The notes under the pieces: model-generated
Seen by the model: only the letters and a program-made list of their open reading frames with translations
Databases searched by the model: none
What the model was told of the DNA's origin: nothing
Part shown: one piece after another, positions 33,148 to 64,000 of the stretch
Layout: every line of letters begins with the position of its first letter
Numbering within the stretch: the first letter of the stretch is position 1
Program-made: the position numbers and the translations under genes
Assembly (NCBI GenBank): GCA_944470555.2
Contig: OX104127.1
Location: 68,409,646 to 68,473,645, forward strand
Length of the DNA: 64,000 nt
From: Heterobilharzia americana
Taxonomy: Eukaryota; Platyhelminthes; Trematoda; Strigeidida; Schistosomatidae
Direction: 5' to 3'

Positions 33148-33211
<64 letters not shown>

Positions 33212-35781
33212 ATTGTCATCGGTGACAGCTTTTGGTTGTCGTTGGGGGGTAGGCATTCAATAGATTCAACTTTTTTCTTCTGACTTTTCAGGAGTAACTA
33301 TGCCTTTTGTCTGAGTTACATAACTCCACTTATTAACCGGCAGACTGTTTTCCACGATAGGTGACTTTGGCATAGCATGGAGATTTCAGTCCAGAGTAGT
33401 TATTTAAATGTCCACTGATAGCGCAATAGAATAATTCGCCGCGGTTTTTATGATGATTATGTTTGTTAAAGATTTGAGTAATTGTGAAGTTAAATATTCG
33501 CTTAATGTACAGTATTTTTCTTAACCAAAGAGAATATGAACAGTTGATTATCAGTCTAAGCACTAGGCTTTCAGTTCACGTATCACAATTCTGCAACACG
33601 CTTCATTTAGAAGCTATTGGAACCTTTGGATGATATCAAATAGCGAATTCATTGCCTGTTGGATGTTAGTTTATTACTTCAGTAGTATTGTATATGGGAA
33701 AAGAGTTTTCGGTCAATTTCGTTACATATCATCCGAAATTTAACATGTGTCACTGTTGGGAAAGTTTTAAGACCTAAACGTTTCTTTAAGACAGAAAGTC
33801 TGTATACAAGTAGTGCCATCAGTATTATGTATAGTTTTCTAAACTTAATGGAAAGACGCAATCCGAAGTCTTTCCAAACCTCATGAATAAGAAAACTCAT
33901 TCGAGACTATTTTTTTGTCTGCTATATCATTCCACTTAGAATAATCAAAAAATACCGTTTACATTTCTGGTCGGCAGTCCTCATGAGTCCCTAACAGAAT
34001 CAGCTTTTCGTTCAACAATGAAATATATGGAGGAAGTTGATCCCAAGCACATCTCAGGTTTTGTGGATTATTGTCTTCGTAATGCAGGTAATACTCGTTG
34101 AATTTAATGTCTATATTTTTTTGTTTTTGTGTTCTGAATAAATAATTCTTTATATACTATGAACACTAGGAACTGTTTACTGTTTCATTATGGAATATTA
34201 TGCTACAGTTTTCGTATGTGTGCTCATATATACTGAAGTGACTTGGGCATGTATTTCTCATGCTGAACCACCACCTGCCTTAATGTGCCATGCTAGAGGG
34301 AAGGTGGATTAGGTCGCCTGAGGGTTCAGAGTAGCCAGACCAAGACATAACACGAATCCGTACAGTCCCCAACTATCAATCCAAACCGTGTTGGGAGATG
34401 TAAACTGCTTCGTATCTTAATATTGTTTGAAGCTTGAATATATGCGCTATTCGTTATCTTTAAACTTTTTATTTTCTTACACAGCTTGGTCTAGTTTGAT
34501 ATCACTTATTCTATCCATTTTTTTGTATACTACTGTGAAGTGTGCAAGTTGAACCGATGCACATGTATACGAGATTCCATGTTGACCTTGTCTCTTTCTC
34601 CCTTTAAAGTTCTACATTTATTCGTTTGTCTGTCTATGTCAAGAACCTGAAAAATTATTCTGTTATATATCTTGTATATGTTATTTTCTATTTTTCGTTT
34701 TCTATCCACAGCCTTATCAAACGATGAGACCAATCTCTTTCAATTAATACGTGCAACTGTATCACCACCGTACAATATGGAGTTGTCAGAAGTTTGTATC
34801 CTACCTACTCTTCAAGTATTATGCAATCGTTTAGAACAGTGTAAAACGGTAATTTCCAACTCCATTTTTTGATGATATTAATGACTTCGTTTTACGTGAT
34901 ATTTGCCTTTTTCTGGCAGCATCCAAGTCTTTTCGTTTACAGACTGCGATCGTTCATCTCATCTGCTCAGTCTTTTGACGATCATTGTGTGGGGTTCGAC
35001 GGTATCCTAACCGTGTTTGATAAAGATCTTTCGGTCAATGGCATGTTACTGATATATGCTTGTGGTGGATATATACAGTTATATGTGAACTGACTTTTGC
35101 ACGATAACCTTGGACTTCACCCCTGAGGGTCTCTCAGTCCTTCGAAAACAGAAAGAAGCGGCAAAAACGATAAAGGTTTATTGTCAAGTCAAACGTGTAC
35201 AAAAAGTCATGGCGTACATACATTTTTGATGGCTTAAGTGTGTTCTACGCTTTTCCAGAAAGTCCTCTAGCTAGTCTGACAGTCATACATTAGATCACGT
35301 GGTTCTTCGCGAAGGTTCAGCATGCTATAATTGACTGTGAAAGCTTTCCAGGGAATTCCATGCTTCTTTGATGTGTCTAGGAAATATTGTTGCACTGCAT
35401 AATAGTTTTGTGGCTTCAGGTGACGTTCTTTCGCTTATCCTAGTTTTTACTGAAGATACTTCAGTCACTAAGATTTTGTTAGAGGGTATTTCAGGTGTTT
35501 TTTTACATTCAGGATGGGATCATGTGCTTCATATTCGCTTTTATTAAACTGATTTGTTGTAAAGCAACTAATCCCTTTGATAAATTTAAACAGCGTAATG
35601 AGAAGACGAAGATTATCTGAAACACGTGATGTATTAGCGCTATACTATTCGAACAATCTGATCACACATGGACTTATTGTAATTTTTTCCTTTGTTTCAG
35701 TTGCCTGAAGATGTACTACAAGCAACGGGGTCATTAGTTCAAGTTTACAATTCATCATTGAACAACAAAGCAACGAACTGA
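646..35781 (+). CDS. LRPPRC/bsf-like mitochondrial PPR protein, 22-exon gene model
   Basis: Multi-exon host gene that I assembled by eye from open stretches with consensus splice borders. Exons: 646-1086, 1213-1299, 9265-9534, 9593-9728, 10096-10281, 10417-10501, 11138-11215, 13557-13675, 15424-15609, 17623-17850, 18931-18993, 20034-20080, 21645-21685, 22443-22495, 24215-24264, 27506-27576, 27683-27815, 29045-29208, 30813-30961, 33940-34087, 34712-34848, 35701-35781. They total 2953 nt, about 984 residues. All junctions keep frame except exon 1 to 2. The N terminus (MSGLLRFGARLLFSSRAVSK) is basic and free of acidic residues, like a mitochondrial presequence. Exons 1-3 carry PPR-type helices with the turn signature DAGIIPNV and YGLKPNVYIY. 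The rest is helical without a motif I can name. LRPPRC-family proteins stabilise mitochondrial mRNAs; length and layout fit that family best, but another PPR protein is possible. Confidence 0.6.
1213..1299 (+). CDS. Exon 2: PPR repeat
   Basis: Acceptor TTTTAG ends at 1212 and donor GTGAGT starts at 1300. It reads AILRLLREYGLKPNVYIYCQ then ILHGYVKAG, a clear PPR-type helix pair, ending in phase 2. It needs two bases from the preceding exon to be in frame, but exon 1 as called ends in phase 0 (see findings). Confidence 0.7.
1300..2334. other. Intron 2, 5' part, unassigned
   Basis: A minus-strand open frame of 118 codons (1382-1738) has no motif I recognise and is interrupted on both sides. Probably an old repeat. 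Nothing else is supported. Confidence 0.3.
2335..2760 (+). mobile_element. RTE-type LINE relic, RT fragment
   Basis: Degraded reverse-transcriptase palm. The stretch at 2410-2490 aligns by eye with the better copy at 40740-40830 (catalytic FLDLKAAFDSVDRE region, here with DQKAGFDPVD). Positions 2700-2735 match the LEYADDIVL box but read NYTDDIV. Gaps and stops throughout. Confidence 0.55.
3090..6250 (+). mobile_element. RTE-type LINE, near full-length, dead
   Basis: Order along the strand: an endonuclease start (KLHIGAFNARTLRQLS at about 3180-3233), a degraded endonuclease to about 4000, the pre-RT region with GRAAGPDGLVPEVFKDGG (about 4608-4665), the RT palm with ADDIVLLGEDTDKVQSL (about 5280-5330), then a C-terminal part with SLKVEDLRRLQVFDD (about 5655-5700). 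It ends in the family's 3' tail at 6197-6251. Many stops and frameshifts. Inserted in intron 2 in the same direction as the host gene. Confidence 0.7.
6197..6346. repeat. Inverted repeat of two LINE 3' tails
   Basis: Arms 6197-6251 and 6292-6346, 55 nt each with about nine mismatches and a 40-nt loop. Formed by convergent insertion of two RTE LINEs with the same tail, so RNA from either strand could fold here. Confidence 0.7.
6280..8290 (-). mobile_element. RTE-type LINE, minus strand
   Basis: Reverse complement of the same family. 5' to 3' on the minus strand: pre-RT with HEVEKAVSNLKRCKALRPD (about 8000-7940), SLIIPVHRR and the following RT segment (about 7855-7500), C-terminal region (about 7000-6600), and the 3' tail at 6346-6292. 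It meets the preceding element tail-to-tail. The segment 7510-7857 is almost identical to the reverse complement of 11615-11962. Confidence 0.7.
7510..7857. repeat. Inverted repeat arm, intron 2 (partner 11615-11962)
   Basis: 348 nt pairing with 11615-11962 at a constant coordinate sum of 19472. I see one difference (T/C) in the parts compared. Both arms are the RT segment of RTE LINEs in opposite orientation, one on each side of exons 3-7. Confidence 0.8.
8291..9264. other. Intron 2, 3' part
   Basis: AT-rich, no recognisable repeat or coding content up to the exon 3 acceptor. Confidence 0.4.
9265..9534 (+). CDS. Exon 3: PPR-like helices
   Basis: Acceptor TTTTTCAG, donor GTATAT. The phase agrees with exon 2 (GG+G). 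It reads LPEEVSSTQEILSQIGLWPS, then SAYEALSSAYADLGDEQSVL and on to QIRIKMQHVAR, a helical-repeat pattern. Separated from exon 2 by about 8 kb of intron filled with RTE LINE relics. Confidence 0.75.
9593..9728 (+). CDS. Exon 4
   Basis: Two AGs lie close together (…TCAGTTAG). Only the second keeps frame, because the first would give an immediate TAG. It reads GVIQQINMVKLSPSLPEEPQ, ending TQ before donor GTTGTG. The intron before it is only 58 nt. Phases on both sides match, which is the main support. Confidence 0.55.
10096..10281 (+). CDS. Exon 5: helical repeat
   Basis: Acceptor TTTCACAG, donor GTGAGT, phase 0 on both sides. It reads MLELLHVVEDPHYQLYAKDT, then VKVLLAMGRLAAALKIFEKL, typical alpha-alpha repeat spacing. 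Confidence 0.8.
10417..10501 (+). CDS. Exon 6
   Basis: Acceptor CTTACTAG, donor GTAAGT, starts in phase 0 and ends in phase 1. It reads DIESLEPFWHVANLDSEQLK then VIRSKCQL. The preceding intron is 135 nt. Confidence 0.75.
11138..11215 (+). CDS. Exon 7
   Basis: Acceptor TTTTTTCAG, donor GTCAGT. Enters in phase 1 and leaves in phase 1. It reads LNRKSKSSNSLFSRFQRRID then DNDVE, a Ser/Lys/Arg-rich hydrophilic linker. Confidence 0.7.
11610..13040 (+). mobile_element. RTE-type LINE, 5'-truncated, in intron 7
   Basis: Starts inside the RT region at LIIPVHRREE, carries RT relics (NFVIDVLTDIILGMSD; EYVDDSVLLGEDANK, with YVDD in place of YADD) and runs to the 3' end at about 13035. Several stops. 11615-11962 and 12402-13029 each have near-identical inverted partners, in introns 2 and 9 respectively. 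Confidence 0.7.
12402..13029. repeat. Inverted repeat arm, intron 7 (partner 16273-16900)
   Basis: 628 nt pairing without indels with 16273-16900 (coordinate sum 29302) and only a few mismatches seen, mostly at the 12402 end. The two arms flank exons 8 and 9. Confidence 0.8.
13041..13335 (+). mobile_element. RTE-type LINE 3' relic
   Basis: Degraded match to the C-terminal LINE segment (compare 41440-41650 in the better copy): the RLQVFDHRCLRSIG region survives as GFRYLTKTVYASQS-type readings with stops. Directly follows the previous element. Confidence 0.5.
13557..13675 (+). CDS. Exon 8
   Basis: Acceptor TTTGTTGTAG, donor GTAATT, ends in phase 0. It reads AFDILRGISVREKTFGFVSI then AEKLADMGYSLVNVLERIE, helical. 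A (TA)n tract starts about 50 nt after the donor. Confidence 0.8.
13676..15423. other. Intron 8 with (TA)n tract and SINE-like repeat
   Basis: A (TA)n microsatellite covers about 13718-13770. About 15000-15170 holds a dispersed SINE-like sequence (listed separately). The rest is AT-rich with no coding signal. Confidence 0.5.
15002..15170 (+). repeat. SINE-like dispersed repeat
   Basis: Contains GGATTCAAACCCTACTCCAC, a B-box-like tRNA promoter motif followed by CACCTACCAA and AGGCCAGGTAGTATCATTAG. Diverged relatives at 26480-26620 and 27080-27235 share the same order of blocks, including the CCCATTGC…GCAC part. Confidence 0.45.
15424..15609 (+). CDS. Exon 9
   Basis: Acceptor TTCTTTTAG, donor GTAAGC, phase 0 throughout (62 codons). 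It reads NPVVNESLVFGYVFNKLSSL to IRFANRNVEKL. The frame stays open past the donor to about 15726, so intron retention would give a short alternative C terminus. Confidence 0.8.
15610..16272. other. Intron 9, 5' part
   Basis: The exon 9 frame stays open to about 15726. Nothing else is recognised before the LINE. Confidence 0.4.
16273..16900 (-). mobile_element. RTE-type LINE 3' end, intron 9
   Basis: 5'-truncated minus-strand copy. It is nearly the exact reverse complement of 12402-13029, and its 3' end (16273) matches the end at 13029 in the intron 7 copy, as expected for a recent LINE insertion. A short (TA)n tract follows at about 17140-17170. Confidence 0.75.
16901..17622. other. Intron 9, 3' part
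   Basis: Contains the (TA)n tract near 17140-17170. No coding signal seen. Confidence 0.4.
17623..17850 (+). CDS. Exon 10 (probable)
   Basis: Acceptor TTATAATTTCAG, donor GTAAGG, exactly 76 codons in phase 0, matching both neighbours. It reads LLSILSVSNLSEIMIHKKCT to NIIIQLLADVCVHH and joins exon 11 (KITFGRDNWL) naturally. Less certain than its neighbours because no PPR signature is visible. Confidence 0.65.
17851..18930. other. Intron 10
   Basis: AT-rich. Around 18700-18840 there is a weakly SINE-like stretch with a GAGTTCGAAC motif. No coding signal. Confidence 0.35.
18931..18993 (+). CDS. Exon 11
   Basis: Acceptor CATCTTGCAG, donor GTATGT, 21 codons, phase 0. It reads KITFGRDNWLLLAMKNADVS then E. 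Confidence 0.75.
19050..19705 (+). mobile_element. RTE-type LINE 3' end, mosaic, intron 11
   Basis: Same 3' segment as 12400-13036. From about 19470 to 19705 it is almost identical to 12800-13036, whereas 19050-19460 is clearly more diverged from 12420-12790. Confidence 0.7.
20034..20080 (+). CDS. Exon 12
   Basis: Acceptor CTTATCTAG, donor GTAAGT, 47 nt ending in phase 2. It reads DVIQNLASSLTTSRN. Confidence 0.7.
20545..21115 (-). mobile_element. RTE-type LINE relic, other subfamily
   Basis: Minus strand reads MFGHRNLRRIACIQCQHHIN then HRLRWFGYVLRIS, the C-terminal LINE signature (compare LHRLRWLGHVLRMPS at about 41625). The upstream part (21115-20900) matches the post-RT CKLLW…FLYLGS region in broken frames. 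Confidence 0.6.
21116..22442. other. Introns 12-13 sequence
   Basis: Apart from exon 13 (21645-21685) it is AT-rich with no repeat or RNA gene recognised. Confidence 0.35.
21645..21685 (+). CDS. Exon 13 (small)
   Basis: A 41-nt exon with acceptor AAATTTAG and donor GTAAGT. It reads FADVCTLFSGPPA. Phase 2 in and phase 1 out, matching both neighbours. Confidence 0.65.
22443..22495 (+). CDS. Exon 14 (small)
   Basis: Acceptor ATTGTCAAG, donor GTATGT, 53 nt, enters in phase 1 and ends in phase 0. It reads SSKSKLKENETFPLVDSI. Confidence 0.65.
22496..23109. other. Intron 14, 5' part
   Basis: Short open frames on both strands at 22938-23204 have no recognisable content. Otherwise AT-rich. Confidence 0.35.
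23110..23330 (-). mobile_element. RTE-type LINE tail and C-terminal relic
   Basis: The minus strand reads ALLYGYETWLLQVENKQKLY, the LINE C-terminal box. It is preceded on the same strand by a diverged copy of the family's 3' tail (23320-23255). Confidence 0.55.
23331..24214. other. Intron 14, 3' part
   Basis: About 23620-23700 has a GGTTCGAAATCC motif like the SINE-like repeats. Nothing else recognised. Confidence 0.35.
24215..24264 (+). CDS. Exon 15 (small)
   Basis: Acceptor TATTTTGCAG, donor GTGAGG, 50 nt ending in phase 2. It reads NVFITEPLLKVAESLV. Confidence 0.7.
24799..24868. repeat. (TA)n microsatellite, intron 15
   Basis: About 70 nt of uninterrupted TA repeat. Confidence 0.95.
25520..26110 (+). 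mobile_element. Penelope-like element, 3' part with GIY-YIG domain
   Basis: Readings in two adjacent frames at 25523-25784 belong to the region between RT and endonuclease. Then about 25785-25880 gives FTCSCGASYIGRTKNTLSKR, the GIY-YIG signature of Penelope endonucleases (C-x-C-G, YIGRT, R). It continues to VHRVRW- and EALAIHQFKPDLC-type C-terminal readings (25980-26105). A stop breaks the frame at about 25783. Same strand as the host gene, in intron 15. Confidence 0.7.
26111..27505. other. Intron 15, 3' part with SINE-like repeats
   Basis: Two SINE-like repeats (26480-26620 and 27080-27235), a (GA)n run at about 27053-27068, otherwise AT-rich. Confidence 0.45.
27506..27576 (+). CDS. Exon 16
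   Basis: Acceptor ATTAAACAG, donor GTGAGT, phase 2 in and phase 1 out. It reads LQKEDPIVCDEKLADIRKSW then RLE. Confidence 0.75.
27683..27815 (+). CDS. Exon 17: helical repeat
   Basis: Acceptor CATTACCTAG, donor GTAAGT. It reads KVALLFNLANFGAEDLIERV, then IQTITNTNDNSKYKLLKDLA and HLI, resembling PPR/TPR-like helix pairs. Phase 1 in, phase 2 out. Confidence 0.8.
27970..28571. repeat. Foldback element with about 190-nt terminal inverted repeats
   Basis: Arms 27970-28164 and 28381-28571 are roughly 88% identical in reverse complement, with a central unique part of about 215 nt. The arms contain ATAACGTTTCGG and CATTCTTC-type blocks. No open frame. Fits a MITE or foldback element, or a head-to-head pair of Penelope termini. 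In intron 17. A partial relative of the right arm lies at about 30230-30350. Confidence 0.65.
28893..28957. repeat. (TA)n microsatellite, intron 17
   Basis: About 65 nt of TA repeat, ending about 90 nt before exon 18. Confidence 0.95.
29045..29208 (+). CDS. Exon 18
   Basis: Acceptor CTATTGTAG, donor GTAAGT, phase 2 in and phase 1 out. It reads VCSESEDNKVEAPESVKEVI, then KSLRSRSVEELLYTLKGPHT and on to WPVDHISD. A (TA)n tract lies about 90 nt upstream. Confidence 0.8.
29715..30055 (+). mobile_element. RTE-type LINE 3' end, intron 18
   Basis: Matches the last part of the LINE C-terminal region and 3' UTR (compare 12730-13036): GGAACCAATGGTTGAAGACG, GGGGCAAATGTATTCACTC and the tail TTCCTCGTTGATTTTGTC. 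Confidence 0.65.
30056..30812. other. Intron 18, 3' part
   Basis: About 30230-30350 resembles the right arm of the foldback element (shared CTTTCCAGTAAGT…ACTTCTTC block). No coding signal before exon 19. Confidence 0.4.
30813..30961 (+). CDS. Exon 19
   Basis: Tandem acceptor TTTTACAGGTAG. The second AG (30811-30812) is the one that keeps frame with exon 18. It reads KLRISVSLIFLVIDVTNKVS then ECRLKSFALQLAGILINRGL, ending LLP at donor GTACGT in phase 0. Confidence 0.75.
31069..31165. repeat. Degenerate (ATCT)n array at the LINE B 3' end
   Basis: Tetranucleotide-like CTAT/ATCT repeats replace the normal 3' terminus of the minus-strand LINE that follows. Homology to the other arm stops at 31166. 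Confidence 0.8.
31166..33148 (-). mobile_element. Young RTE LINE (SR2-like), copy B, 5'-truncated, intron 19
   Basis: Minus strand, 5' at the (TA)n tract (33148). It carries RT with FIDFEKAFDSVDREVIWQLL (about 32230-32170), GVRQGCLLSPMILLIVVDWI (about 32060-32000), the catalytic box LDFTDDLCLMS (F-T-D-D, about 31930-31895) and a C-terminal RRKCRWLGHTLRR segment (about 31360-31320). Frameshifts and stops disable it. SR2 is the schistosome RTE family I think of; the assignment is tentative. Near-identical inverted copy at 61312-63294. Confidence 0.75.
33149..33207. repeat. (TA)n microsatellite at the LINE B 5' junction
   Basis: About 58 nt of TA here. The matching tract in the other arm is 21 nt shorter (about 61277-61311), which shifts the pairing sum from 94481 to 94460. 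Confidence 0.9.
33940..34087 (+). CDS. Exon 20
   Basis: Acceptor ATTCCACTTAG, donor GTAATA, phase 0 in and phase 1 out. It reads NNQKIPFTFLVGSPHESLTE, then SAFRSTMKYMEEVDPKHISG and FVDYCLRNA. An internal GGCAG could pass for an acceptor but breaks frame. This exon also lies, inverted, at 60394-60541. Confidence 0.75.
34240..34605 (+). mobile_element. RTE-type LINE 3' end, intron 20
   Basis: Diverged LINE 3' end: CATGCTGAACCACCACCTGC, then CCATGCTAGAGGGAAGGTGG, and a tail with GTGCAAGTTGAACCGATGCA. Duplicated on the minus strand at 59876-60241. Confidence 0.6.
34712..34848 (+). CDS. Exon 21
   Basis: Acceptor CTATCCACAG, donor GTAATT, phase 1 in and phase 0 out. It reads LSNDETNLFQLIRATVSPPY, then NMELSEVCILPTLQVLCNRL and EQCKT. 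Duplicated inverted at 59633-59769. Confidence 0.8.
34849..35700. other. Intron 21
   Basis: Contains a 74-codon open frame (34869-35093) without recognisable content. A minus-strand stretch around 35170-35200 has an AATAAA-like motif. No repeat family identified. Confidence 0.35.
35701..35781 (+). CDS. Exon 22: C terminus and stop
   Basis: Acceptor TTGTTTCAG. It reads LPEDVLQATGSLVQVYNSSL then NNKATN and TGA at 35779-35781. Duplicated inverted at 58700-58780. Confidence 0.8.
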   Translation: MPEDVLQATGSLVQVYNSSLNNKATN

Positions 35782-35784
35782 ATG

Positions 35785-36868: not shown

Positions 36869-38586
36869 TCCCTGGTGAGATTGCATCTGGTCCTGCTTCT
36901 TTCCCGTATTTCAGTAGCCCTATGGCGTTCAGGACTTCGACTTTCGTCGTGTTCACTGGTAGTTCTGTGTCTGCAGGTGGCGGTGGATTCAAGAGCTTTT
37001 TGAAGTGGCCAGCTCATCGTTTCTCTTCCTTGGTAATTATATTTTCTTCATCATCTTTTATTGGTTTCATCGGTATTGATCTCTTCCCTACCAGATAGTA
37101 ACCTGGTTGTTTGATACAATGTTGTCAGGTCTCTCTTACCTGCAGCCTGTTGTGCTCCACTTGCCAGTGTTTCGTAGAAGTGTCTTTTTTCTTTCCGTGC
37201 ACTCTGCTTCACTTCTTTGTTCAGTGTAGTGTTTTGTACACTGTGCTCAGTTCCTCTTGTCGTTGTTCATCCTTGCACTGGTTTATCTTCTGCTTCACCA
37301 TCCTCCTCTCCCTGCTCTACCAGCTTCCATGTGTCCATCGAGATCCATTCCTTATCTTCTTTCTTCTTCCTTCCTAATAGGGTTATACAGGTTTTTTTCA
37401 TATAGTTTTCAAAGAGTTCCAGTACTCATCCATACAGGTTTCTTCAGGGATGCTGCTCGATACCTCCCATTTTGTCTTGACGGCTGACGTGAAGATTTCC
37501 TTTGCACTTTCGTCTTTCAGTTTCCGAGTGTTTTACTTGGACTATGGTCTATCACCAACTTCCTTTAAGGCTTTCAATTTGATTTGGAAGGTTTCTTGCA
37601 CTAGATAGTGGTCTGAGTCTACATCGGCTCCCCTACTTGACCTTGTATCCAGTAGGCTGCGTCTCCACTTTCTTCAAATTGAGATGAAGTCGGTCTGATT
37701 TTTAGTGTAGTGTGTCCTGGTGTCTGGTGAAGTCCATATCGCTTTGTGTATATCCTTGTGCTTGAACACAGTGCCTCCAATCACCAAATCTTTGAATGCA
37801 CAGAATTCTGCAAACATTTCTCCATTCCCGTTCATTTCACCGAGTGCTTCTTGACCCATGGTTAGTTCTCTTCCTGTGTTGTCCGCTCCGAATTTGACAT
37901 TCATATCGCCCATTCGAATTTTGATGTCGCCAGCTGAGGTTTTGTCCAGTGTTGATTGCAGTTGTCTGTGGAATTCCTCCCTCTTCTCTTCATCTGCATT
38001 ATTTGTGGGTGCGTAGTGTGGCACTGTATGATTGTGACTTCCCTTCCTTTTGAGTTGAACCTTGCTGTTATGATCCTGGAGGAGATTGGTTCCCACTGTA
38101 TAAGAGCCTGCGATGCTCTCGGAGACATCATGATAGCCACTCCCTCCGTGTGCTCGTGGTTGTCGTCTGGGTGACAACATCGGAGTAGATTATTGACTCT
38201 CCAGTTGATAGTTGGGAGAGTCCACCTGCTTTCGCAGATTCCTAGCACTTCTATGCTATACCTTCTCATCTCCTTTGCAATCTGGGCGGCCTCACTGGGT
38301 TCAAACATAGTGCGGACATCCCATATCCCCACTTTTACTTTCGCCTTCATCGAGAGAAGACACAGCCAATTGGCTTCCCAAAGGCTTTCACCGACCGGCG
38401 TCATTTCGTCTCTCCGATTCCAGCGAGGAATAAGTTTGATTTTATTTTTTATATTCTGTCTGTGCTTTGAAGTTTCTTCAGCGGTTGGATTGGTTTTACG
38501 CGGTAGGGTTGCTAGCTCTAAGTCCAACCTTCCTTATATACCCGGGCTTAGGACCGGCTAGTAACCAGTGAACTAGTTTACCAGGC
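36869..38586 (-). mobile_element. Young RTE LINE (SR2-like), copy A, 5' part, 3'-truncated
   Basis: Minus strand with the 5' end at 38586 (GCCTGGTAAACTAGTTCACT). Endonuclease motifs: GIWDVRTMFEPSEA and CESRWT (about 38330-38215), GDMNVKFG (about 37905-37880) and TRTHYTKNQTDFISI (about 37720-37675), in two frames with a shift near 38010. The element breaks off at about 36869, before the RT core. Loss of the 3' rather than the 5' end is unusual for a LINE insertion. Confidence 0.75.
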
Positions 38587-40639
38587 GTGGTTCCTAAACG
38601 CCGTTGGTCGCATATATTATGCATGATCTGAAAACAATTCGTTGCGGTTCTTTAGTGCGGTGGTTCTGACAGGCTATCTGTCTGCTTGAGAATTACCGAC
38701 TAGGATTATTTGGATGAGCAGTTAAACAGAGGTCAGGCGTTTGTGATATGTAGGACATTTAAGTGTTCGGTACGCTACCTTGCATCACATTATGACACCT
38801 GTGATTAAAGAAACGCTGTTCGAAGATGTCTTGTATGATACACTTTTGAATTGTTGTGGTATTCATTTCTGAAAGGAGTTTGGTGAAAATCCTGCTTTTC
38901 GGGTGTGTGTATTGGCAGCGCCTTGGCCATCAGAAAACATGCGTCTGAAATTTTCTCTCTTCACGAGCTTCTGATCTTTATGTAGCGAGGTTTCGCTTGC
39001 GCATCTGAAGAGATGATCTCTTCATTACCTCCGTTGCTTAATAGTCTTAAATTTTCTGCTTTCTCTATGTGGCTTTTAACTAAGTTCTCATGCTTTCCAT
39101 GAAGATATCCTAATGGATGAAAATTCTCTGGATTTCTTCCATTATGGTCCTAATATTTTCTGTTTCTTTCCTGCGGTCATCAATACCGTTACTAATGATA
39201 GATATGATATCTTCAGTTCCGACGAAAGGTGTGGGGCATACGGCCAAACAATGCATCTGTCACAAAAAAGCACTGGAATGACCAAGTCTTTTATCTTACA
39301 CTGTGGTCAATTTTAGAACCCTCAACCGTAGATCGTCTCATTTATATCCGCATATCTCATATTATGTCCGATATGCTGACAAGAACTGCCTAAACTAAGA
39401 GAATCCCCTAGCGGAGTTCGTTCACTTGCTGCTGTAGGTCTTAGGTTGTTTCTTAAAGTCGAGAGTTCCTTATTGAGAACTTCCAATTGGGATTCGGCTG
39501 ACATGGGATTTTGCCTGGTGCGACTGTAATAGTTTTCAGATTGTTATTTAGTCGTATGTGATCCTACAGGTTAATGAACCCTTTAGCATTACATGCGGAA
39601 GTGAACTTGAAAGGAATAGAGCAAATCAACCGTGCTACTTTCTTGTGTAGGCGTTTGTGGTCACTGTACATGGCTGTCATGCAACGTGAGTTTAGTACCT
39701 TTTTCCTGACGACATCCAAGGGTATGGCCCCCCAGAACACCCCATAATATAGGGTGCTGAGAGGTCAGCCACATTACTTCAGTTCCTAGGTAGTCTGTTG
39801 GAGCTTAAGCTTTTCCGATATGATCTGTAACCACGTCGCTACGTCAAGGGTTGAGAGTCTTCAACTACACTCTTGATTCCATCCACCGTGGACATAATAT
39901 TGCCCATTTCTTTTGTATTCTTCCTGACGTTATTGTTAATTACCGACATAATGTCTTCAATTCTGACGAAAAATGTAAGGCATGTAGACTCTTTGAGATC
40001 TGAATTACATGATGCAATAGAGTTGCAAGACGATGGAATAGTAGTGGAACCAACTCTTTTATTACTTCGCCAGAGTTATTTAGATTGGTCCGTCTTATTC
40101 TTGAAACTGACTCAAAGTGAGATTTGGAACTCACAAAAAAGCTGGTAGGTGAAATATTTATTCCAGAAGGATGGGAATACACTGTCTGTAAGTCACAATG
40201 TAGCTTCATATCACTCAGACGGAAGAGGTCGTTATATCACCATAAATATAGAGTAATAATCAGCTACACACAAACGGAAATCCACAAACACATAATCAAG
40301 AACCACAAGTCAAGACAGTGTATCAATTCAGCGTTACCACAATGGACCCATAGTGAGGTACCATCAGAGGAACAACAGTGACAAAACGGAAATTCAAAGA
40401 TCCATCAATGAATAAACGCGGCTACTGGACCGAAAAAATGACAACTATCCAACTTCAAAGTTAGGGACAAACTTCTTGCCTAAAACTACAGACCGGCTTT
40501 CTGAACCTCATCTGAAGATGGGATGTGCTGAGCGCTCATCTACTGTTGAATTCAGTGCTGTCCGATTCCCTGAGATCAGGGGATGCACAACTGCGTGCAT
40601 TGCGAATAACAATTCTGTACACATGGCACTTCCAGACTA
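38587..40639. other. Unassigned sequence, probably old repeat
   Basis: The minus strand at 39790-39530 reads GVFWGAIPLDVVRKKVLNSR then CMTAMYSDHKRLHKKVARLI, and 39504-39322 reads a short coiled-coil-like QLEVLNKELSTLRNNL. Frames are broken by stops. It could be the ORF1 of an unidentified retroelement or a degraded gene. Confidence 0.35.
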
Positions 40640-54289: not shown

Positions 54290-56352
54290 TCATTCTTGGT
54301 CTCCTACTCGTGGGTATATAGCAGGTTGGAATAATTGGTGATTGGCCTCTTCGTTTCTCAGGTTCACATCAGAACAATTCCTTAACTGTTGAGCTCAACG
54401 TGACAACAAATCCCGGCCATTGAAAAATCCTTAATCGGTGAGCACTTTCCATTTTTTTACTTGTATATTGTTCTCATTTTGATAACCTTTATATATCCAC
54501 ATACTCCCTCCCGTGCCCTACCATATCCTGAAACTCATCCATATTAAGCCAACGACGAACAACATCCAGCTAGTGTCGTACTGGCCAGATGATGTAGAAA
54601 CGTGCTTTCTTTGTGTCGAGAAAAGGAAGTAGTGGACCCTCATTCTAGGTTTCTTGCTGTCATGCGTTCACTACCGCAGAAGTTGAACAGACATGTTGCA
54701 GCGCATATGTTTAGTCCTGAAGTTGGTGATCCTTATGCACTTCTCAAAGCTGCACTAATGAGGAAAAGTGATCTCACAGATCTCCAGCCCCTAGGCTAAT
54801 CGCTTCGTCACACCGAGCTAGGCAGCAACTCAGCTACTAAAGCTCTCGCACACATGCGAGTAGTTAGGGGCACACGAACGTTAGATAATTGCCTTTTCCG
54901 AGAACTGTTTCTCCGGAAACTATTAAAACCGAAGCAAACCGTGTTAGTGACACTTCAGTCAGTTCCATTCGATAACCTGGCGGCCCCAGCAGATAAATGC
55001 TGGAGATCTCAAGTGGACTCGTCTCCAACGTATATTCGTTCTGCGATAAACCCGAGAGCCACGATTCAAAAGTAACCAAGCTCTGCATTTCCGTTAGGCA
55101 GCTGCTACGAACTCGAAACCCTAGGTTACGTAGCTCATCCGAGAAACGCTTCTCAGCCCATCGCAACAACTCACACGTTGTACAAAACTAAACAAAACAT
55201 GGTGAAGGACCCTGAATGGTGCCGGTTTCGCAACAATTACAGGACGACGCTAGAAAATGCCGGAGGCCATGCAGTTTCACCACGGACACGAACTCGGGAA
55301 ACTATTATGCCGCCACATGTTCACAGCAAGTGCAGCCGGCGGAAACGGCCGTTTGCTTCACGTTTCAGGGGTAAAAACGAAAGTTCGCTACCTCGTCGAC
55401 ACCTGCACCCACAAAGGCGCTTCATCACGACGCATCCTTCAATCTTCAAGCAGCTAACGCCAAGGCAGTCGCAACATTTAGGAGACGGTACGTCTACCTC
55501 AACTTAGGTTCACGCAAGCCTATTCACTAGATTTTTCTCCCAGCTGACGTTCCTATGCCCATCATTGGAATGAGTTTGCAAAACCATTACGATTTACTCG
55601 AAGATGGTCGTCGTCGACGACTGATAGATGACAACACAAAGTTATCTATTGGCTGCACCACCTGTGTAGGTCCAAGTCTAGCCATCGTTACAACTGGACA
55701 ATCAGGTGACGTGTCCTATCAGCAGCTTTAAAGAAATGCGTAAAGTTACAACAACCGAAGCATGCCCTTCCGTGCATAACCGGCAATGTTGTGCACCACG
55801 TCACAATCACAGGTCCACCTGCGGAATCCAAAGCACGCCGTCTAGACCTTGATAGGATCAAAAAGGAGAAAAGTGAATTCCGCGACATGCTCGAAACCGG
55901 CATTATCAAACCTTTAAGCAGTCCTTGGGCATCATCACTGCATACGGTTCCCAAAAAGGATCACAAGGAAAGGCGTCCAAACGGTGACTACCGAAGGCTT
56001 GAAGCCGAAACAACACCGGTCTGCTACCCGATACCTCATGTTTGCGACTTGACTGTGACGTTATGTGGAATGAACATATGTTCCGAAACCGATCAGGTCA
56101 AAGCGTATAATCAGATACACACGGCAGCGGAAGATATCGTGAAAAAGCCATTATTACTCCTTTTGGCCTGTTTGAATTCCTACACATGCCATTCGGTCAT
56201 CGGAATGCAGCACAGACAATCCCACGTTTTATGGAAAATGTTTTCCACGGCTTAGATTTTGTCCAACCCCCATCGATGACTGTCTCGTTGCGAGTTCAGA
56301 CAAGGAAGCTTGCCTTGAACATTTGAACCTCGTATTCAGTAGGCTGAACCTA
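54290..56352 (+). mobile_element. CsRn1-like Ty3/Gypsy retrotransposon, 5' half (gag, protease, RT)
   Basis: Gag readings at 54620-54980: SRFLAVMRSLPQKLNRHVAA, then SLRHTELGSNSATKALAHMR, FRELFLRKLL and DNLAAPADK. A nucleocapsid-like DPEWCRFRNNYRT follows at about 55210, and protease-like RYLVDTCTHKGASSRR (DTC in place of DTG) at about 55390-55440. RT starts at 55795 (HHVTITGPPAESKARRLDLD; GIIKPLSSPWASSLHTVPKK; NGDYRRLEAETTPVCYPIPH). The RT decays after 56160 and stops at 56352, where a LINE 5' end begins. An LTR probably lies around 54210-54420, but I could not fix its ends. Confidence 0.75.
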
Positions 56353-57612
56353 GCCTGGTAAACTAGTTCACTGGTTACTAGCCGGTCCTAAGCCCGGGTA
56401 TATAAGGAAGGTTGGACTTAGAGCTAGCAACCCTACCGCGTAAAACCAATCCAACCGCTGAAGAAACTTCAAAGCACAGACAGAATATAAAAAATAAAAT
56501 CAAACTTATTCCTCGCTGGAATCGGAGAGACGAAATGACGCCGGTCGGTGAAAGCCTTTGGGAAGCCGATTGGCTGTGTCTTCTCTCGATGAAGGCGAAA
56601 GTAAAAGTGGGGATATGGAATGTCCGCACTATGTTTGAACCCAGTGAGGCCCCCCAGATTGCAAAGGAGATGAGAAGGTATAGCATAGAAGTGCTAGAAA
56701 TCTGCGAAAGCAGGTGGACTCTCCCAACTATCAACTGGAGAGTCAATAATCTACTCCGATGTTGTCACCCAGACGACAACCACGAGCACACGGAGGGAGT
56801 GGCTATCATGATGTCTCCGAGAGCATCGCAGGCTCTTATACAGTGGGAACCAATCTCCTCCAGGATCATAACAGCAAGGTTCAACTCAAAAGGAAGGGAA
56901 GTCACAATCATACAGTGCCACACTACGCACCCACAAATAATGCAGATGAAGAGAAGAGGGAGGAATTCCACAGACAACTGCAATCAACACTGGACAAAAC
57001 CTCAGCTGGCGACATCAAAATTCGAATGGGCGATATGAATGTCAAATTCGGAGCGGACAACACAGGAAGAGAACTAACCATGGGTCAAGAAGCACTCGGT
57101 GAAATGAACGGGAATGGAGAAATGTTTGCAGAATTCTGTGCATTCAAAGATTTGGTGATTGGAGGCACTGTGTTCAAGCACAAGGATATACACAAAGCGA
57201 TATGGACTTCACCAGACACCAGGACACACTACACTAAAAATCAGACCGACTTCATCTCAATTTGAAGAAAGTGGAGACGCAGCCTACTGGATACAAGGTC
57301 AAGTAGGGGAGCCGATGTAGACTCAGACCACTATCTAGTGCAAGAAACCTTCCAAATCAAATTGAAAGCCTTAAAGGAAGTTGGTGATAGACCATAGTCC
57401 AAGTAAAACACTCGGAAACTGAAAGACGAAAGTGCAAAGGAAATCTTCACGTCAGCCGTCAAGACAAAATGGGAGGTATCGAGCAGCATCCCTGAAGAAA
57501 CCTGTATGGATGAGTACTGGAACTCTTTGAAAACTATATGAAAAAAACCTGAACGCCATAGGGCTACTGAAATACGGGAAAGAAGCAGGACCAGATGCAA
57601 TCTCACCAGGGA
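56353..57612 (+). mobile_element. SR2-like RTE LINE, copy A', deleted
   Basis: Plus-strand twin of copy A. It carries the same endonuclease frames (GIWNVRTMFEPSEA at about 56600, GDMNVKFG at about 57030, TRTHYTKNQTDFISI at about 57220) and the same frameshift. Four substitutions relative to the left arm cluster in 56569-56699. At about 57550 the sequence jumps 458 nt at a CCTG microhomology. Confidence 0.8.
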
Positions 57613-58699
57613 GCTCCCCGCCAGGAAATTATATGGTTCGCGTTGAGTTTGCTTTAGTTGCCTGCAAGTTACAAAACTGAAACATGAAGACTGTAAGGCA
57701 GGCAGCTGAAAGTAGGTCAATGTTGCATGACCATAAAGTTCCAAAAACACAACCGTTCTGAAAGTATAACAGTTTTCAGTCATATCTATATTGAGAATAG
57801 TTTCCACTCTCCTTTGAGTCAGACGACCAACCTGCACACTCCAACCGTGTGGCTTCGAGGAAGATGATGCCATCATACTTGATTTAAGCCATTTACGTGA
57901 CGGATGAATATACTTCCTCCCACATCTAGGATAAATGACGTCGACAAACAGGGATGGATGTTACAATATGTGTCATACTCGACAGTAACGTTTCAGTTGA
58001 ACTGAACCTCCGAACATAACGATAGATAAATAACTGGCATCTGGAATCCAGTCAATCAGTGTGACTGATACAGGGTCTCCGGACAGACACATATGGAACA
58101 TGCTATTACATTTAACAGCCAAGCACTTCGCTTTTTGTATGCGGGTCCTTAAAAAGCAGCACATATTAATAGCGAAGGTCAAGGTACCCGTTGTTTTTTC
58201 GGCAATAAATGGCAAGTTTGAAAACTGATCATCTTCAAAAGCGTATGTGGTGTCGGATAGAATAACTTCGCACAGTAAGTCGAAAAGAGTTGACAGAGTA
58301 CAGAGGTTTTAATCAGCGAGTTTCGAAATGTACACACATTAAATGACACCTACAACATATCACGGTATCGAGAGGAGTGCCTTACAGCGAGAGATGTTGC
58401 GGTAGCAATGAAACGAATACAAACTACAGAATTACACACTGGGCGATTCAACTGCAACACGAAGAGAAAAAGTTACGCCATCAATCTACAGGCGTGATCA
58501 TAGCCAAGAGAATCTCCAACAGCAAAATCACATGTCGAATAGTCAATAAATTAAGTTATGAGAGTAGAATAGGTAGGAATCAACCTAATTAAACGATTTA
58601 TTTCACAAGATGATAACTAAGTCCACCTAAATAAACAGGACAGCTATATCACGATCTTCCAAACGAAAACGGCAGAAATTTGCAATAAGAGTACATCAT

Positions 58700-58780
58700 T
58701 CAGTTCGTTGCTTTGTTGTTCAATGATGAATTGTAAACTTGAACTAATGACCCCGTTGCTTGTAGTACATCTTCAGGCAA
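58700..58780 (-). pseudogene. Duplicate of PPR-gene exon 22
   Basis: Inverted copy of 35701-35781, stop codon included, with its acceptor and the AATAAA at 58597-58602. No upstream exons 1-19 exist on this strand, so it cannot encode the protein. Confidence 0.85.
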
Positions 58781-59632
58781 CTGAAACAAAGGAAAAAATT
58801 ACAATAAGTCCATGTGTGATCAGATTGTTCGAATAGTATAGCGCTAATACATCACGTGTTTCAGATAATCTTCGTCTTCTCATTACGCTGTTTAAATTTA
58901 TCAAAGGGATTAGTTGCTTTACAACAAATCAGTTTAATAAAAGCGAATATGAAGCACATGATCCCATCCTGAATGTAAAAAAACACCTGAAATACCCTCT
59001 AACAAAATCTTAGTGACTGAAGTATCTTCAGTAAAAACTAGGATAAGCGAAAGAACGTCACCTGAAGCCACAAAACTATTATGCAGTGCAACAATATTTC
59101 CTAGACACATCAAAGAAGCATGGAATTCCCTGGAAAGCTTTCACAGTCAATTATAGCATGCTGAACCTTCGCGAAGAACCACGTGATCTAATGTATGACT
59201 GTCAGACTAGCTAGAGGACTTTCTGGAAAAGCGTAGAACACACTTAAGCCATCAAAAATGTATGTACGCCATGACTTTTTGTACACGTTTGACTTGACAA
59301 TAAACCTTTATCGTTTTTGCCGCTTCTTTCTGTTTTCGAAGGACTGAGAGACCCTCAGGGGTGAAGTCCAAGGTTATCGTGCAAAAGTCAGTTCACATAT
59401 AACTGTATATATCCACCACAAGCATATATCAGTAACATGCCATTGACCGAAAGATCTTTATCAAACACGGTTAGGATACCGTCGAACCCCACACAATGAT
59501 CGTCAAAAGACTGAGCAGATGAGATGAACGATCGCAGTCTGTAAACGAAAAGACTTGGATGCTGCCAGAAAAAGGCAAATATCACGTAAAACGAAGTCAT
59601 TAATATCATCAAAAAATGGAGTTGGAAATTAC

Positions 59633-59769
59633 CGTTTTACACTGTTCTAAACGATTGCATAATACTTGAAGAGTAGGTAGGATACAAACTTCTGACAACT
59701 CCATATTGTACGGTGGTGATACAGTTGCACGTATTAATTGAAAGAGATTGGTCTCATCGTTTGATAAGG
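59633..59769 (-). pseudogene. Duplicate of PPR-gene exon 21
   Basis: Inverted copy of 34712-34848 with intact splice borders and no difference seen by eye. Confidence 0.85.
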
Positions 59770-59875
59770 CTGTGGATAGAAAACGAAAAATAGAAAATAA
59801 CATATACAAGATATATAACAGAATAATTTTTCAGGTTCTTGACATAGACAGACAAACGAATAAATGTAGAACTTT

Positions 59876-60241
59876 AAAGGGAGAAAGAGACAAGGTCAAC
59901 ATGGAATCTCGTATACATGTGCATCGGTTCAACTTGCACACTTCACAGTAGTATACAAAAAAATGGATAGAATAAGTGATATCAAACTAGACCAAGCTGT
60001 GTAAGAAAATAAAAAGTTTAAAGATAACGAATAGCGCATATATTCAAGCTTCAAACAATATTAAGATACGAAGCAGTTTACATCTCCCAACACGGTTTGG
60101 ATTGATAGTTGGGGACTGTACGGATTCGTGTTATGTCTTGGTCTGGCTACTCTGAACCCTCAGGCGACCTAATCCACCTTCCCTCTAGCATGGCACATTA
60201 AGGCAGGTGGTGGTTCAGCATGAGAAATACATGCCCAAGTC
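59876..60241 (-). mobile_element. Duplicate of the intron 20 LINE 3' end
   Basis: Inverted copy of 34240-34605, carried along in the duplicated arm. Confidence 0.75.
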
Positions 60242-60393
60242 ACTTCAGTATATATGAGCACACATACGAAAACTGTAGCATAATATTCCATAATGAAACA
60301 GTAAACAGTTCCTAGTGTTCATAGTATATAAAGAATTATTTATTCAGAACACAAAAACAAAAAAATATAGACATTAAATTCAACGAGTATTAC

Positions 60394-60541
60394 CTGCATT
60401 ACGAAGACAATAATCCACAAAACCTGAGATGTGCTTGGGATCAACTTCCTCCATATATTTCATTGTTGAACGAAAAGCTGATTCTGTTAGGGACTCATGA
60501 GGACTGCCGACCAGAAATGTAAACGGTATTTTTTGATTATT
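60394..60541 (-). pseudogene. Duplicate of PPR-gene exon 20
   Basis: Inverted copy of 33940-34087 with intact borders and no difference seen by eye. Together with the two other copied exons it forms a promoterless gene fragment with its introns retained, so it did not come from spliced mRNA. Confidence 0.85.
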
Positions 60542-61275
60542 CTAAGTGGAATGATATAGCAGACAAAAAAATAGTCTCGAATGAGTTTTCTTATTCATGA
60601 GGTTTGGAAAGACTTCGGATTGCGTCTTTCCATTAAGTTTAGAAAACTATACATAATACTGATGGCACTACTTGTATACAGACTTTCTGTCTTAAAGAAA
60701 CGTTTAGGTCTTAAAACTTTCCCAACAGTGACACATGTTAAATTTCGGATGATATGTAACGAAATTGACCGAAAACTCTTTTCCCATATACAATACTACT
60801 GAAGTAATAAACTAACATCCAACAGGCAATGAATTCGCTATTTGATATCATCCAAAGGTTCCAATAGCTTCTAAATGAAGCGTGTTGCAGAATTGTGATA
60901 CGTGAACTGAAAGCCTAGTGCTTAGACTGATAATCAACTGTTCATATTCTCTTTGGTTAAGAAAAATACTGTACATTAAGCGAATATTTAACTTCACAAT
61001 TACTCAAATCTTTAACAAACATAATCATCATAAAAACCGCGGCGAATTATTCTATTGCGCTATCAGTGGACATTTAAATAACTACTCTGGACTGAAATCT
61101 CCATGCTATGCCAAAGTCACCTATCGTGGAAAACAGTCTGCCGGTTAATAAGTGGAGTTATGTAACTCAGACAAAAGGCATAGTTACTCCTGAAAAGTCA
61201 GAAGAAAAAAGTTGAATCTATTGAATGCCTACCCCCCAACGACAACCAAAAGCTGTCACCGATAACAATGCGCAT

Positions 61276-61311
<36 letters not shown>

Positions 61312-63370
61312 CGTAAATCTTCACGGCAGCCATAACGACAAAATGGGAGATATCAAGCAGCATCCCTGAAGAAACTTGTGTACAAGAACGCTGGAAGTCT
61401 TTGAAAGAGATGTGGAAAGAAAACCTGCACAACTGTATTAGGAAGCAAGAAGAAAGAAGATAAACCAGTGCAAGGATGAACAACGACAAGAGGAACTGAG
61501 CACAGTGTACAAAACACTACACTGAACAGAGAAGTGAAGCAGAGTGCACGGAAAGAAAAAAGACACTTCTACGAAACACTGGCAAGTGGAGCACAACAGG
61601 CTGCAGGTAAGAGAGACCTGACAACATTGTATCAAACAACCAGGTTACTATCTGGTAGGGAAGAGATCAATACCGATGAAACCAATAAAAGATGATGAAG
61701 AAAATATAATTACCAAGGAAGAGAAACGATGAGCTGGCCACTTCAAAAAGCTCTTGAATCCACCGCCACCTGCAGACACAGAACTACCAGTGAACACGAC
61801 GAAAGTCGAAGTCCTGAACGCCATAGGGCTACTGAAATACGGGAAAGAAGCAGGACCAGATGCGATCTCGCCAGAAGCACCAAGAACAGACGTAGGGACA
61901 ACAGCAGACAGGCTCATACCACCATTGCAGAAGGTCTAGAAGGAAGGAAATGTACCTGCTGGTCGATTGGAAGAAGGGCTACCTTGTCAAACTCCCAAAC
62001 AAGGGTGGGCAACTTAAGTGTTTGCAAGAACTGGCGCGGAATCACTCTCCTGTCCACCCCAAGCAAAACATTAAGCCTCATCATTCTGGAGAGACTAGAC
62101 GATTCACTGGATTCAAAACTACGACCCGAACAGGCAGGTTTCAGGAAGCAAAAATCATGTGCGGACCAAATCGCAACGCTACGCGCTACGCATCATCACA
62201 CAACAGAGCATAGAATGACAGCCAACTCAACTTCATCGACTTTGAAAAGGCCTTTGACAGCGTCGATCGAGAGGTAATTTGGCAGTTGCTTCAACACTAC
62301 GGAATACCACAGACTTTTATCAATTTCATTCAACAACTATATGAAGACGCCACATACCAGCCAAGTAATTCACAATGGGAAGCTCAGTGATGCCTTTGCA
62401 GCGAAGACAGGAGTAAGACAGGGTTGCCTACTATCACCGATGATACTCCTGATTGTGGTCGACTGGATCGTGCAGCAAACAGTGGGGAGCGAGAAGAGGG
62501 GGATACGCTGGGCCGGGGAAAGAGCCTAGAAGATTTGGATTTCACCGATGACTTGTGTCTGATGTCACACAAACTTGAAGATCTACAGGCGAAAACTAAC
62601 AAGTTGGCAGAAGAGGTAAGGCAGAGAAGACGGGACTTCAAGTGAATATAGAGAAGACAGAGGTGATGAAGATACCCAGCCAATAACAAGCTCCAATCAC
62701 CATCAACGGGAGAAACTTGAAGGAAGTAGCCTCTTCCACCTATCTAGACAGCACTGTTTCAACTACAGGTGGCACAGACGGGGACGTCAAAGCCAGGATC
62801 GGAAAGACTGCAAGACAGGTGTTCATTAACCTGAAACCAGTGTGGCGATCTTCCGCGCTCAGCAAAAAGCGTGAAAAAGATCCGGATTTTCAACGCCGAC
62901 GTCAAGTCAGTGCTTCTGTATGGTTCAGAGACTTGGTGCGTTACGTAAAGCATTTCCAACAAACTGCAGACATTCATCGACAACTGCCTACCCTCGTTAC
63001 TGAAGATCAGATGGCCAGAATAATAAGAATAAGCAACAAGGAACTCACTCGGGCTGGCAACGAACCAACCAAGAACCCATCACCCAACAGATATGCAGAA
63101 GGAAGTGTAGATGGCTTGGGCACACACTGAGAAGGTCGATTGAGGACATCACGCACCAAGCCAGTCACTCGAGTGGAACCCAGATGAGAAGCGACTAGTT
63201 GGACGTCCAAGGTGAGGATGACATGGAGGAGATCGTGCGAGGGGGAAATGAGAGCTACTGGGCTGTCATGGGGCCAGGTTCAAGAGGTTGCAGAGAAGAG
63301 AGCGCAATGGATGCGTGCTGCTACTGCCCTATGTTCCACTAGGAACCCAAGGGACAAATAATGATGATAA
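61312..63370 (+). mobile_element. SR2-like RTE LINE, copy B', with complete 3' end
   Basis: Plus-strand twin of copy B: FIDFEKAFDSVDREVIWQLL (about 62235-62295), GVRQGCLLSPMILLIVVDWI (about 62410-62470), LDFTDDLCLMS (about 62535-62565), RRKCRWLGHTLRR (about 63095-63135). It shares the same disabling frame breaks. Unlike the left copy it continues to a normal terminus ending GGGACAAATAATGATGATAA. Confidence 0.8.
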
Positions 63371-64000
63371 ACTCGGTAGACTGAGAAAGTTTACATGATA
63401 GTCGACTTGCACTACTTTTTTGCTGGCTGGGAATGAACGAAGACTTTAAGGAATGGTTCAGCCGTACTTAGCTTGCCAGAGGCGTAAAGTTGCGAGACAC
63501 ACGAAAAGCCCTTCAGGTTCTTTTCTAGCCCAATGCACGCCTTTCGACCTTGTCCATATGGATATTATAGGACCTCTACCAGAATCTAATGGATGTGCTT
63601 ACCTTATCATCCACGTGGATCGTTTTACGCGATTGTCAGAAGCATCACCTATTAGGAATATTACTGCTGAAACTGTCGCCCTTGTTTTCGTAGAAAGATG
63701 GATCGCGAACTTTGGATGTTCGTCTTGCGTAACAACCGACCGTGAACGCCAATTCGAGTGTGGATTATCTCACGCTTTAACTGCACTTTTAGGTGTCACT
63801 CGGTTCCTAACGATGGTTTGCCATCCACAAATAAATGTGATTGTATAACGTTTTTATAGATGGCTGAAAGCTTCCTTTTCAGCTGCGAAACAAACCTCAG
63901 TGGACCGAGGCTCTGCCTATGGTCCCACTAGGTTTTCGCAACGCGTTGAAAGCTGATGATGGATGCACCTTCGCGGGACTCGTCTGTGGGACTACTCCTC
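63371..64000 (+). mobile_element. CsRn1-like Ty3/Gypsy retrotransposon, integrase part
   Basis: After a short flank, 63455-63850 reads LACQRRKVARHTKSP (zinc-binding region end), FDLVHMDIIGPLPESNGCAY (catalytic Asp within HMDIIGPLP) and YLIIHVDRFTRLSEASPI, then CVTTDRERQFECGL (second catalytic Asp region, TDRERQF where TDRGRQF is usual). A stop at about 63846 is followed by FYRWLKASFSAAKQ in the same frame, then LPMV-type readings in another. The RNase H part is missing between 56352 and here. Continues past the window end. Confidence 0.75.

Follow-up and report, generated by a model that had tools for sequence, protein, structure and literature searches.

RTE-flanked duplication has already been proposed in Schistosoma japonicum (Mbanefo et al. 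2012, PMC3434034). As described in the available part of that paper, the dispersed duplications have mostly partial RTE-like/Perere retrotransposons on both sides, and recombination at the DNA level was proposed as their origin. The locus of Heterobilharzia americana described here, also from a schistosomatid, resembles them in these respects; however, while the S. japonicum account, as far as that part goes, concerns 34 contigs with unresolved breakpoints, here there is one copy with base-level breakpoints and a probable switch to the 3' end of a third LINE. In S. mansoni, a micro-exon of MEG-3.1 was duplicated beside an SM-alpha-like retrotransposon (DeMarco 2010, as cited in the available part of PMC8293314), which is likewise an exon copied near a retroelement and attributed to break repair, but that case involves a 9-bp exon and SM-alpha, and ours three exons, their introns and two LINE fragments. 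Human structural variants flanked by L1-L1 homology (PMC12350158, available part) also use LINE pairs as flanking homology, although they comprise 219 deletions against one insertion, in contrast to the duplicative insertion in H. americana. In the L1/SVA transductions treated in the same part of PMC12350158, host DNA is moved along with a LINE; the transduced DNA lies 5' or 3' of one element, whereas in H. americana it is enclosed by two fragments, with a source devoid of a LINE 3' end.

In the window, i.e., the whole analysed stretch of 64,000 nucleotides, two LINE fragments (E2 and E1) enclose the three terminal exons, with introns, of the PPR gene, which matches H. americana. The features of this source locus are as follows.

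31166..33145, minus strand: E1, a 5'-truncated LINE between two PPR gene exons, ending in (AGAT)n without a LINE 3' end
33940..35781, plus strand: source of the three exons, the end of the PPR gene (tblastn of P0049, residues 769-889; stop codon read in the sequence)
36872..38593, minus strand: E2, a LINE that retains its 5' part and whose 3' end is truncated at the border to host DNA
36883..37291, minus strand: 409-bp tract of E2 identical to E1 (32597-33005), beside about 80% identity, gene-conversion-like

The LINE-host-LINE order claimed in an earlier note on this DNA is present at this locus and in the copy, which lies inverted within a Gypsy-type pol fragment about 18 kb away.

55710..56352, plus strand: Gypsy/Ty3-type pol, reverse transcriptase (RT) part, frameshifted; Ty3 RT matches 4ol8 (E 0.0017) and 7q5b (E 0.0078), with the IDD motif and the next residues in another frame
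56336..56347, plus strand: possible left target-site duplication (TSD) in the Gypsy RT sequence, TCAGTAGGCTGA, weak
56353..57547, plus strand: E2-derived LINE 5' part (endonuclease region), copy of 38586-37392; tblastn matches to schistosomatid LINE-type proteins P0001, P0003 and P0017
57547..57552, plus strand: deletion junction, with 4-bp microhomology CCTG at 57548-57551, where two BLAST blocks overlap by 4 bases
57548..57609, plus strand: terminal 62 bp of E2 (E1-like tract) adjoining host DNA, 97% identical to 61813-61874
57610..61273, minus strand: host DNA, namely the PPR gene 3' flank and last three coding exons with introns, antisense to the LINE
61274..61314, plus strand: (TA)n run and a few neighbouring bases; the source has 21 bp more
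61315..63274, plus strand: E1-derived LINE part (RT region), copy of 33145-31186, with frameshifts common to the source
63275..63372, plus strand: LINE 3' end unlike E1, with an open C-terminal frame, a stop and a TGATGATAA tail; end of the putative resident LINE, E3
63373..63384, plus strand: possible right TSD, TCGGTAGACTGA
63385..63848, plus strand: Gypsy/Ty3-type integrase, zinc finger and core, frameshifted; rve match (E 4.7e-6, 27.2 bits vs. a cut-off of 32.6), PFV and Ty3 integrase matches

The earlier placement of Gypsy RT on one side of the unit and integrase on the other is borne out by the Ty3, PFV and rve matches, with RT to the left and integrase to the right, and RT precedes integrase in one orientation, as in Gypsy/Ty3 elements, with weak E-values and broken frames. 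A Pfam search of the RT part (55710..56352) gave no match, and a protein search for its relatives, which bears on the suggested CsRn1 affinity, returned 20 candidates, none at E <= 0.001. An extrapolation from the Ty3 alignments of the flanks indicates that the Gypsy pol lacks roughly 1 kb at the insertion point, comprising late RT and RNase H.

The composite LINE measures 3151 bp; its endonuclease region matches schistosomatid LINE-type proteins, and the RVT_1 match of its E1-derived part is just under the cut-off (E 2.6e-6, 27.7 bits vs. 29.6). The presence of endonuclease and RT, the length near 3.2 kb and the very short AT-rich 3' UTR suggest, by resemblance, a member of the RTE clade as delimited in the available part of PMC1291365. 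The lengths given there, 3,211 bp for SR3 and 3,913 bp for SR2, place the composite near the former and offer no support for its previous description as SR2-like. Within the window, Rfam yielded no matches at the gathering threshold.

Sequence comparison of the two arms upholds the claim that they are inverted and near-identical: 56353-63274 of the copy is an inverted match to 31186-38586 with 8 substitutions in 6922 bases, a donor as similar as repeat-mediated ectopic gene conversion calls for. The reading of the 7-kb unit as a copy of the parental locus holds for this part (source 38586-31186) and fails for the rest of the unit. The source is longer (7401 vs. 6922 bp), as the copy lacks 21 bp of the TA run and a further 458 bp, a figure obtained by subtracting the 21 bp from the length difference; the latter gap corresponds to 36934-37391, a position that the shared CCTG leaves uncertain by up to 4 bases.

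The intron-bearing copy of the exons is likewise confirmed. Its tblastn matches (60541-60395, 59776-59630 and 58780-58703) and their E-values are identical to those of the source exons, and "exons 20-22", as numbered in the earlier note, are the last three coding exons (P0049 residues 769-889). As terminal exons that lack a start, they give no reason to assume a new gene. Across 57610-61264 there are two substitutions, at the fourth and the last base, and the host core between them (57614-61263) has no change in 3650 bases, an outcome with a chance of 0.005 for seven uniformly placed changes, given boundaries picked post hoc. Four of the seven non-microsatellite changes between copy and source fall within 131 bp of LINE sequence (scan P 0.0009, post hoc), namely at 56568-56698 in the E2-derived part.

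Such an identical core, together with a divergence that looks allelic (8/6922, with the 458-bp indel and the microsatellite length change), would also be expected if the alternate haplotype of the source had been joined into a Gypsy-nested LINE during assembly through the LINE repeats at both ends. We regard this artefact as a real but lesser possibility. Both junctions lie within LINE repeats, and repeats at both junctions are a usual place of misassembly; this reverses the earlier argument, in which the LINE termini at the two ends were taken as evidence against an artefact. On the other hand, two wrong joins would be required, and the assembly, whose contig carrying the matching H. americana protein has 162,561,350 bases, looks chromosome-scale and is presumably based on long reads, which would bridge a unit of 7 kb. 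We reject a simple fold-back of one set of reads as the sole cause, in view of the missing 458 bp, the TA run shortened by 21 bp and the 8 substitutions; these differences do not argue against a joined-in alternate haplotype.

The duplicated exons look most like a product of DNA repair with LINEs as the matching ends, and we lean, if only slightly, towards an ectopic gene conversion (gap repair) that was real and recent and took place at the DNA level. According to this scenario, an RTE-type LINE (E3) would first have inserted into the Gypsy element and then have been opened by a double-strand break. Its broken ends would have paired with the two related, inverted LINE fragments about 18 kb off, E2 serving as partner on the 5' side and E1 on the 3' side, and synthesis would have passed through the intervening host DNA. 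E3 would thus now hold E2, the host exons and E1, while retaining its own 3' end (from 63275) and perhaps also its first bases.

The 3' switch, inside LINE homology, is clear and abrupt. Past 63274 the copy stays LINE coding sequence up to the stop and the TGATGATAA tail, with a true 3' end near 63372, whereas in the source this frame closes with a stop and gives way to an imperfect microsatellite. In 63275-63294, beyond which the source is (AGAT)n, there are 3 mismatches in 20 bases, compared with 2 in the preceding 1999 (one within the TA run); none of 200,000 uniform placements of 10 changes, computed post hoc, put 3 in these final 20 bases. The end of identity at 63274 and the continuation of the source as (AGAT)n disfavour E1 as donor of the LINE 3' end of the copy. 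Because the source enters this repeat without a LINE 3' end, the end was probably contributed by a third LINE, E3; a LINE 3' terminus, described earlier for the unit, is thus a property of the copy and not of the source.

Both the concentration of mismatches at 63274/63275 and the contrast between LINE end and microsatellite count for gene conversion. So does the separate 409-bp tract identical in E1 and E2, which suggests an earlier LINE-LINE conversion at the source locus, while an unchanged host core with changes clustered in LINE sequence is as expected for mosaic LINE ends. The TSD-like words TCAGTAGGCTGA and TCGGTAGACTGA also count for it: they match at 10 of 12 positions, a weak similarity equalled by 0.57% of 3000 random 25-mer pairs from the window (9 matches and 2.2% for words of 11, 10 matches and 1.7% for words of 13), and TSDs of 10 and 12 bp are reported for SR3 in the available part of PMC1291365.

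Several observations count against gene conversion. E3 is a LINE that we infer rather than see. The 5' switch lies within the first 346 bp at most, at a position that is not clear; over 56353-56567 (215 bases) the copy does not differ from E2, and compared with P0003 and P0001 both copy and source have lost one codon just within the substitution cluster, so that E3 may have contributed very little or nothing on this side. At the four clustered positions, the P0003 residue occurs in the source at three and in the copy at one, a pattern also obtainable by plain mutation of the copy. Moreover, a clean LINE insertion does not predict the loss of about 1 kb of Gypsy sequence, and repeat-induced misassembly predicts nearly the same sequence.

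The missing Gypsy stretch, the clustered changes and the 4-bp microhomology at the 458-bp deletion are features that replication-based template switching (MMBIR/FoSTeS type) would accommodate: repair of a break in the Gypsy element would have copied the source in inverted orientation and then continued by a jump to a different LINE, which supplied the 3' end; roughly 1 kb of the Gypsy element would have been deleted. We consider this unlikely, as microhomology is unnecessary given LINE homology at both ends, and entry exactly at a LINE 5' end would be due to chance. The deletion itself may have arisen during copying, afterwards or already in the donor allele. Splicing was rejected as its origin: by eye, no placement permitted by CCTG gives GT-AG on the transcript strand, one giving GT but ending in CT.

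Among the routes raised in the earlier note, a LINE-guided move is supported, as the duplicated DNA begins and ends in LINE sequence; a LINE-templated one fits poorly because the source is without a LINE 3' end. In the latter, a transcript starting at the 5' end of E2 and crossing the antisense host DNA into E1 would have been reverse transcribed into the Gypsy element by LINE machinery, with a 3' template jump from another LINE RNA. The copy does span a LINE 5' end to a LINE 3' end, an antisense transcript would keep introns, and there are possible TSDs. However, the source, which enters (AGAT)n, offers no LINE 3' terminus at which target-primed reverse transcription (TPRT) of a chimeric RNA could start, the transcript strand of the host part contains 11 AATAAA/ATTAAA hexamers, neither E1 nor E2 has an intact reading frame, and this route, too, needs a change to another LINE at 63274/63275, all of which makes it quite improbable. 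Similarly improbable is that two decayed LINE fragments and the host segment acted as one composite mobile unit, in which LINE machinery would have copied E2, host exons and E1 as RNA, jumped onto it from the 3' end of an intact LINE and inserted 7 kb of intron-bearing host DNA.

If real, the duplication attributed here to gene conversion would be a base-resolved case of schistosomatid LINE repeats dispersing parts of host genes by a DNA-repair route, one that the available part of PMC3434034 proposes for S. japonicum without resolved breakpoints. The 7-kb inverted repeats, lying about 18 kb apart, could in turn drive inversions.

The window contains no N, and a repeat search together with BLAST within it revealed three collinear, inverted blocks shared between the source and its copy in the Gypsy-type pol fragment:

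Inverted block pairs (source / copy; repeat search and BLAST)
33206-36933 / 57548-61275, inverted
31166-33184 / 61276-63294, inverted
37388-38593 / 56346-57551, inverted

Base-by-base comparison of the three blocks together gave 13 differences:

Positions of differences
56351, 56352: extreme 5' end of the blocks (2)
63275, 63278, 63284: final 20 bases of the blocks (3)
61282: inside a TA run (1)
56568, 56619, 56652, 56698, 57613, 61264, 61529: remaining differences (7)

If 56353-63274 is taken as the true copy, 8 of 6922 bases differ, and not one change falls in the 3650 bases of its host core. The corresponding source stretch measures 7401 bases; the copy lacks 458 bp of it, with a 4 bp overlap at the junction (57548-57551), and its TA run is 21 bp shorter.

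A protein search with the first 148 residues of the PPR gene found P0049 of Heterobilharzia americana, the only one of 174 candidates with E <= 0.001. In tblastn, P0049 aligns with the window throughout the gene (646-35778), with mismatches confined to block edges or intron read-through stretches; the block at 19995-20078 reaches only 54% identity as a whole, since it extends into unrelated sequence. Its last three exons (residues 769-889) match source and copy with equal E-values:

Last three exons of P0049 (tblastn)
33940-34086, 34705-34851, 35701-35778: source
60541-60395, 59776-59630, 58780-58703: copy

Their native place is the source and not the copy, since the upstream exons adjoin the source in order. 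Within the first exon region (646-1086), 12 residues open in the frame of the window are absent from the P0049 model, which would point to either a short intron or an alternative form. Also within the gene span are three repeat copies of 99-100% identity (12386-13032, 16270-16916 and 19475-19700, the middle one inverted), which may be a young element or may reflect a further local conversion, and an inverted pair of 363 bp and 98% identity (7505-7867 / 11605-11967).

The LINE fragments on either side of the host exons at the source, E2 and E1, are decayed and have the same orientation. A search with one open frame of the LINE endonuclease region left 48 of 93 candidates at E <= 0.001. The best is P0001 of Trichobilharzia regenti, with 66% over 60% of the query; the matches after it include Heterobilharzia americana P0003 and P0017 and, at greater distance, proteins of molluscs and corals. 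For the RT part, the match to RVT_1 falls slightly under the Pfam cut-off. The earlier note called the LINE 5' end SR2-like; in length and 3' end, however, the composite LINE (3151 bp, ending in a stop and TGATGATAA) resembles not SR2 but SR3, described as 3,211 bp long with a short AT-rich 3' UTR (PMC1291365). Long open frames of a LINE RT at 40516-41909 (RVT_1, E 1.5e-28), for which no BLAST match to E1 or E2 was listed, apparently belong to a different family.

The earlier note described the same LINE-exons-LINE order at the parental locus; identity to that source holds as far as 63274, where the copy ceases to track E1. From 63275 to ~63372 the copy carries an open LINE C-terminus, stop and tail, whereas the source has a stop codon, two further changes and then an imperfect (AGAT)n array before 31166. 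Being imperfect, the array is probably old, and this, with the unchanged host core, makes it hard to see how E1 lost its own 3' end after copying. Another LINE therefore probably provided the 3' end of the copy, most simply one already resident in the Gypsy element. The array (31073-31165) abuts the E1 3' end, and E1 may have been primed internally at this microsatellite.

The case for foreign LINE sequence at the left end is weaker. The two differences at 56351-56352 are followed by 215 identical bases and then by four differences clustered in 131 bp, at which the source has the P0003 residue in three of four positions and the copy in one of four; a one-codon loss inside the cluster is common to both. 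At the source, the final 420 bases of E2 differ from E1 at two positions, both in the last 11 bases, leaving 409 identical. Directly to the 5' side, identity is only ~80% (107 bases), with a gap of 69 bases in E1. Gene conversion between the two direct repeats would leave just such a pattern.

Left of the unit, a Gypsy/Ty3-type RT stops ~24 codons beyond the IDD motif, and the integrase zinc finger and core lie to the right; extrapolation from aligned positions 703 and 1172 of Ty3 chain 7q5b indicates that ~340-350 codons (1 kb) of pol are absent. The two 12-base words on either side of the unit agree at 10 positions, a score reached by 0.57% of 3000 random pairs (1.7-2.2% were as good for two other word lengths), which suggests, short of proof, an aged LINE insertion with a TSD.

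Ectopic gap repair would place E2, the host exons and E1 into a LINE already in the Gypsy element; it explains the near-identity, the LINE at both ends, the intron-bearing host passenger and a 3' end that comes from a foreign LINE, and it agrees with the identical tract that E1 and E2 already share. Microhomology-driven template switching accounts better for the Gypsy deletion but leaves the LINE ends on both sides unexplained. RNA templating of the unit requires a transcript through 11 AATAAA/ATTAAA hexamers, together with externally supplied machinery and a jump between templates. Misassembly is a serious rival: the same sequence fits it or gene conversion, and does not by itself tell them apart.

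A literature search, largely at the level of listings and not including the gene name, found no account of this locus. Repeat-flanked duplications are already known, so that it represents another instance: in Schistosoma japonicum, a dispersed duplication flanked on each side by RTE-like and Perere elements was attributed to proposed non-allelic recombination (PMC3434034); in Schistosoma mansoni, an exon duplicated next to a retrotransposon is ascribed in a review to break repair (PMC8293314); and in 1,019 humans, L1-flanked variants comprised 219 deletions and one insertion (PMC12350158). While the breakpoints are unresolved in the description of the Schistosoma japonicum duplication (PMC3434034), here they are resolved, and in this lies the value of the present locus.
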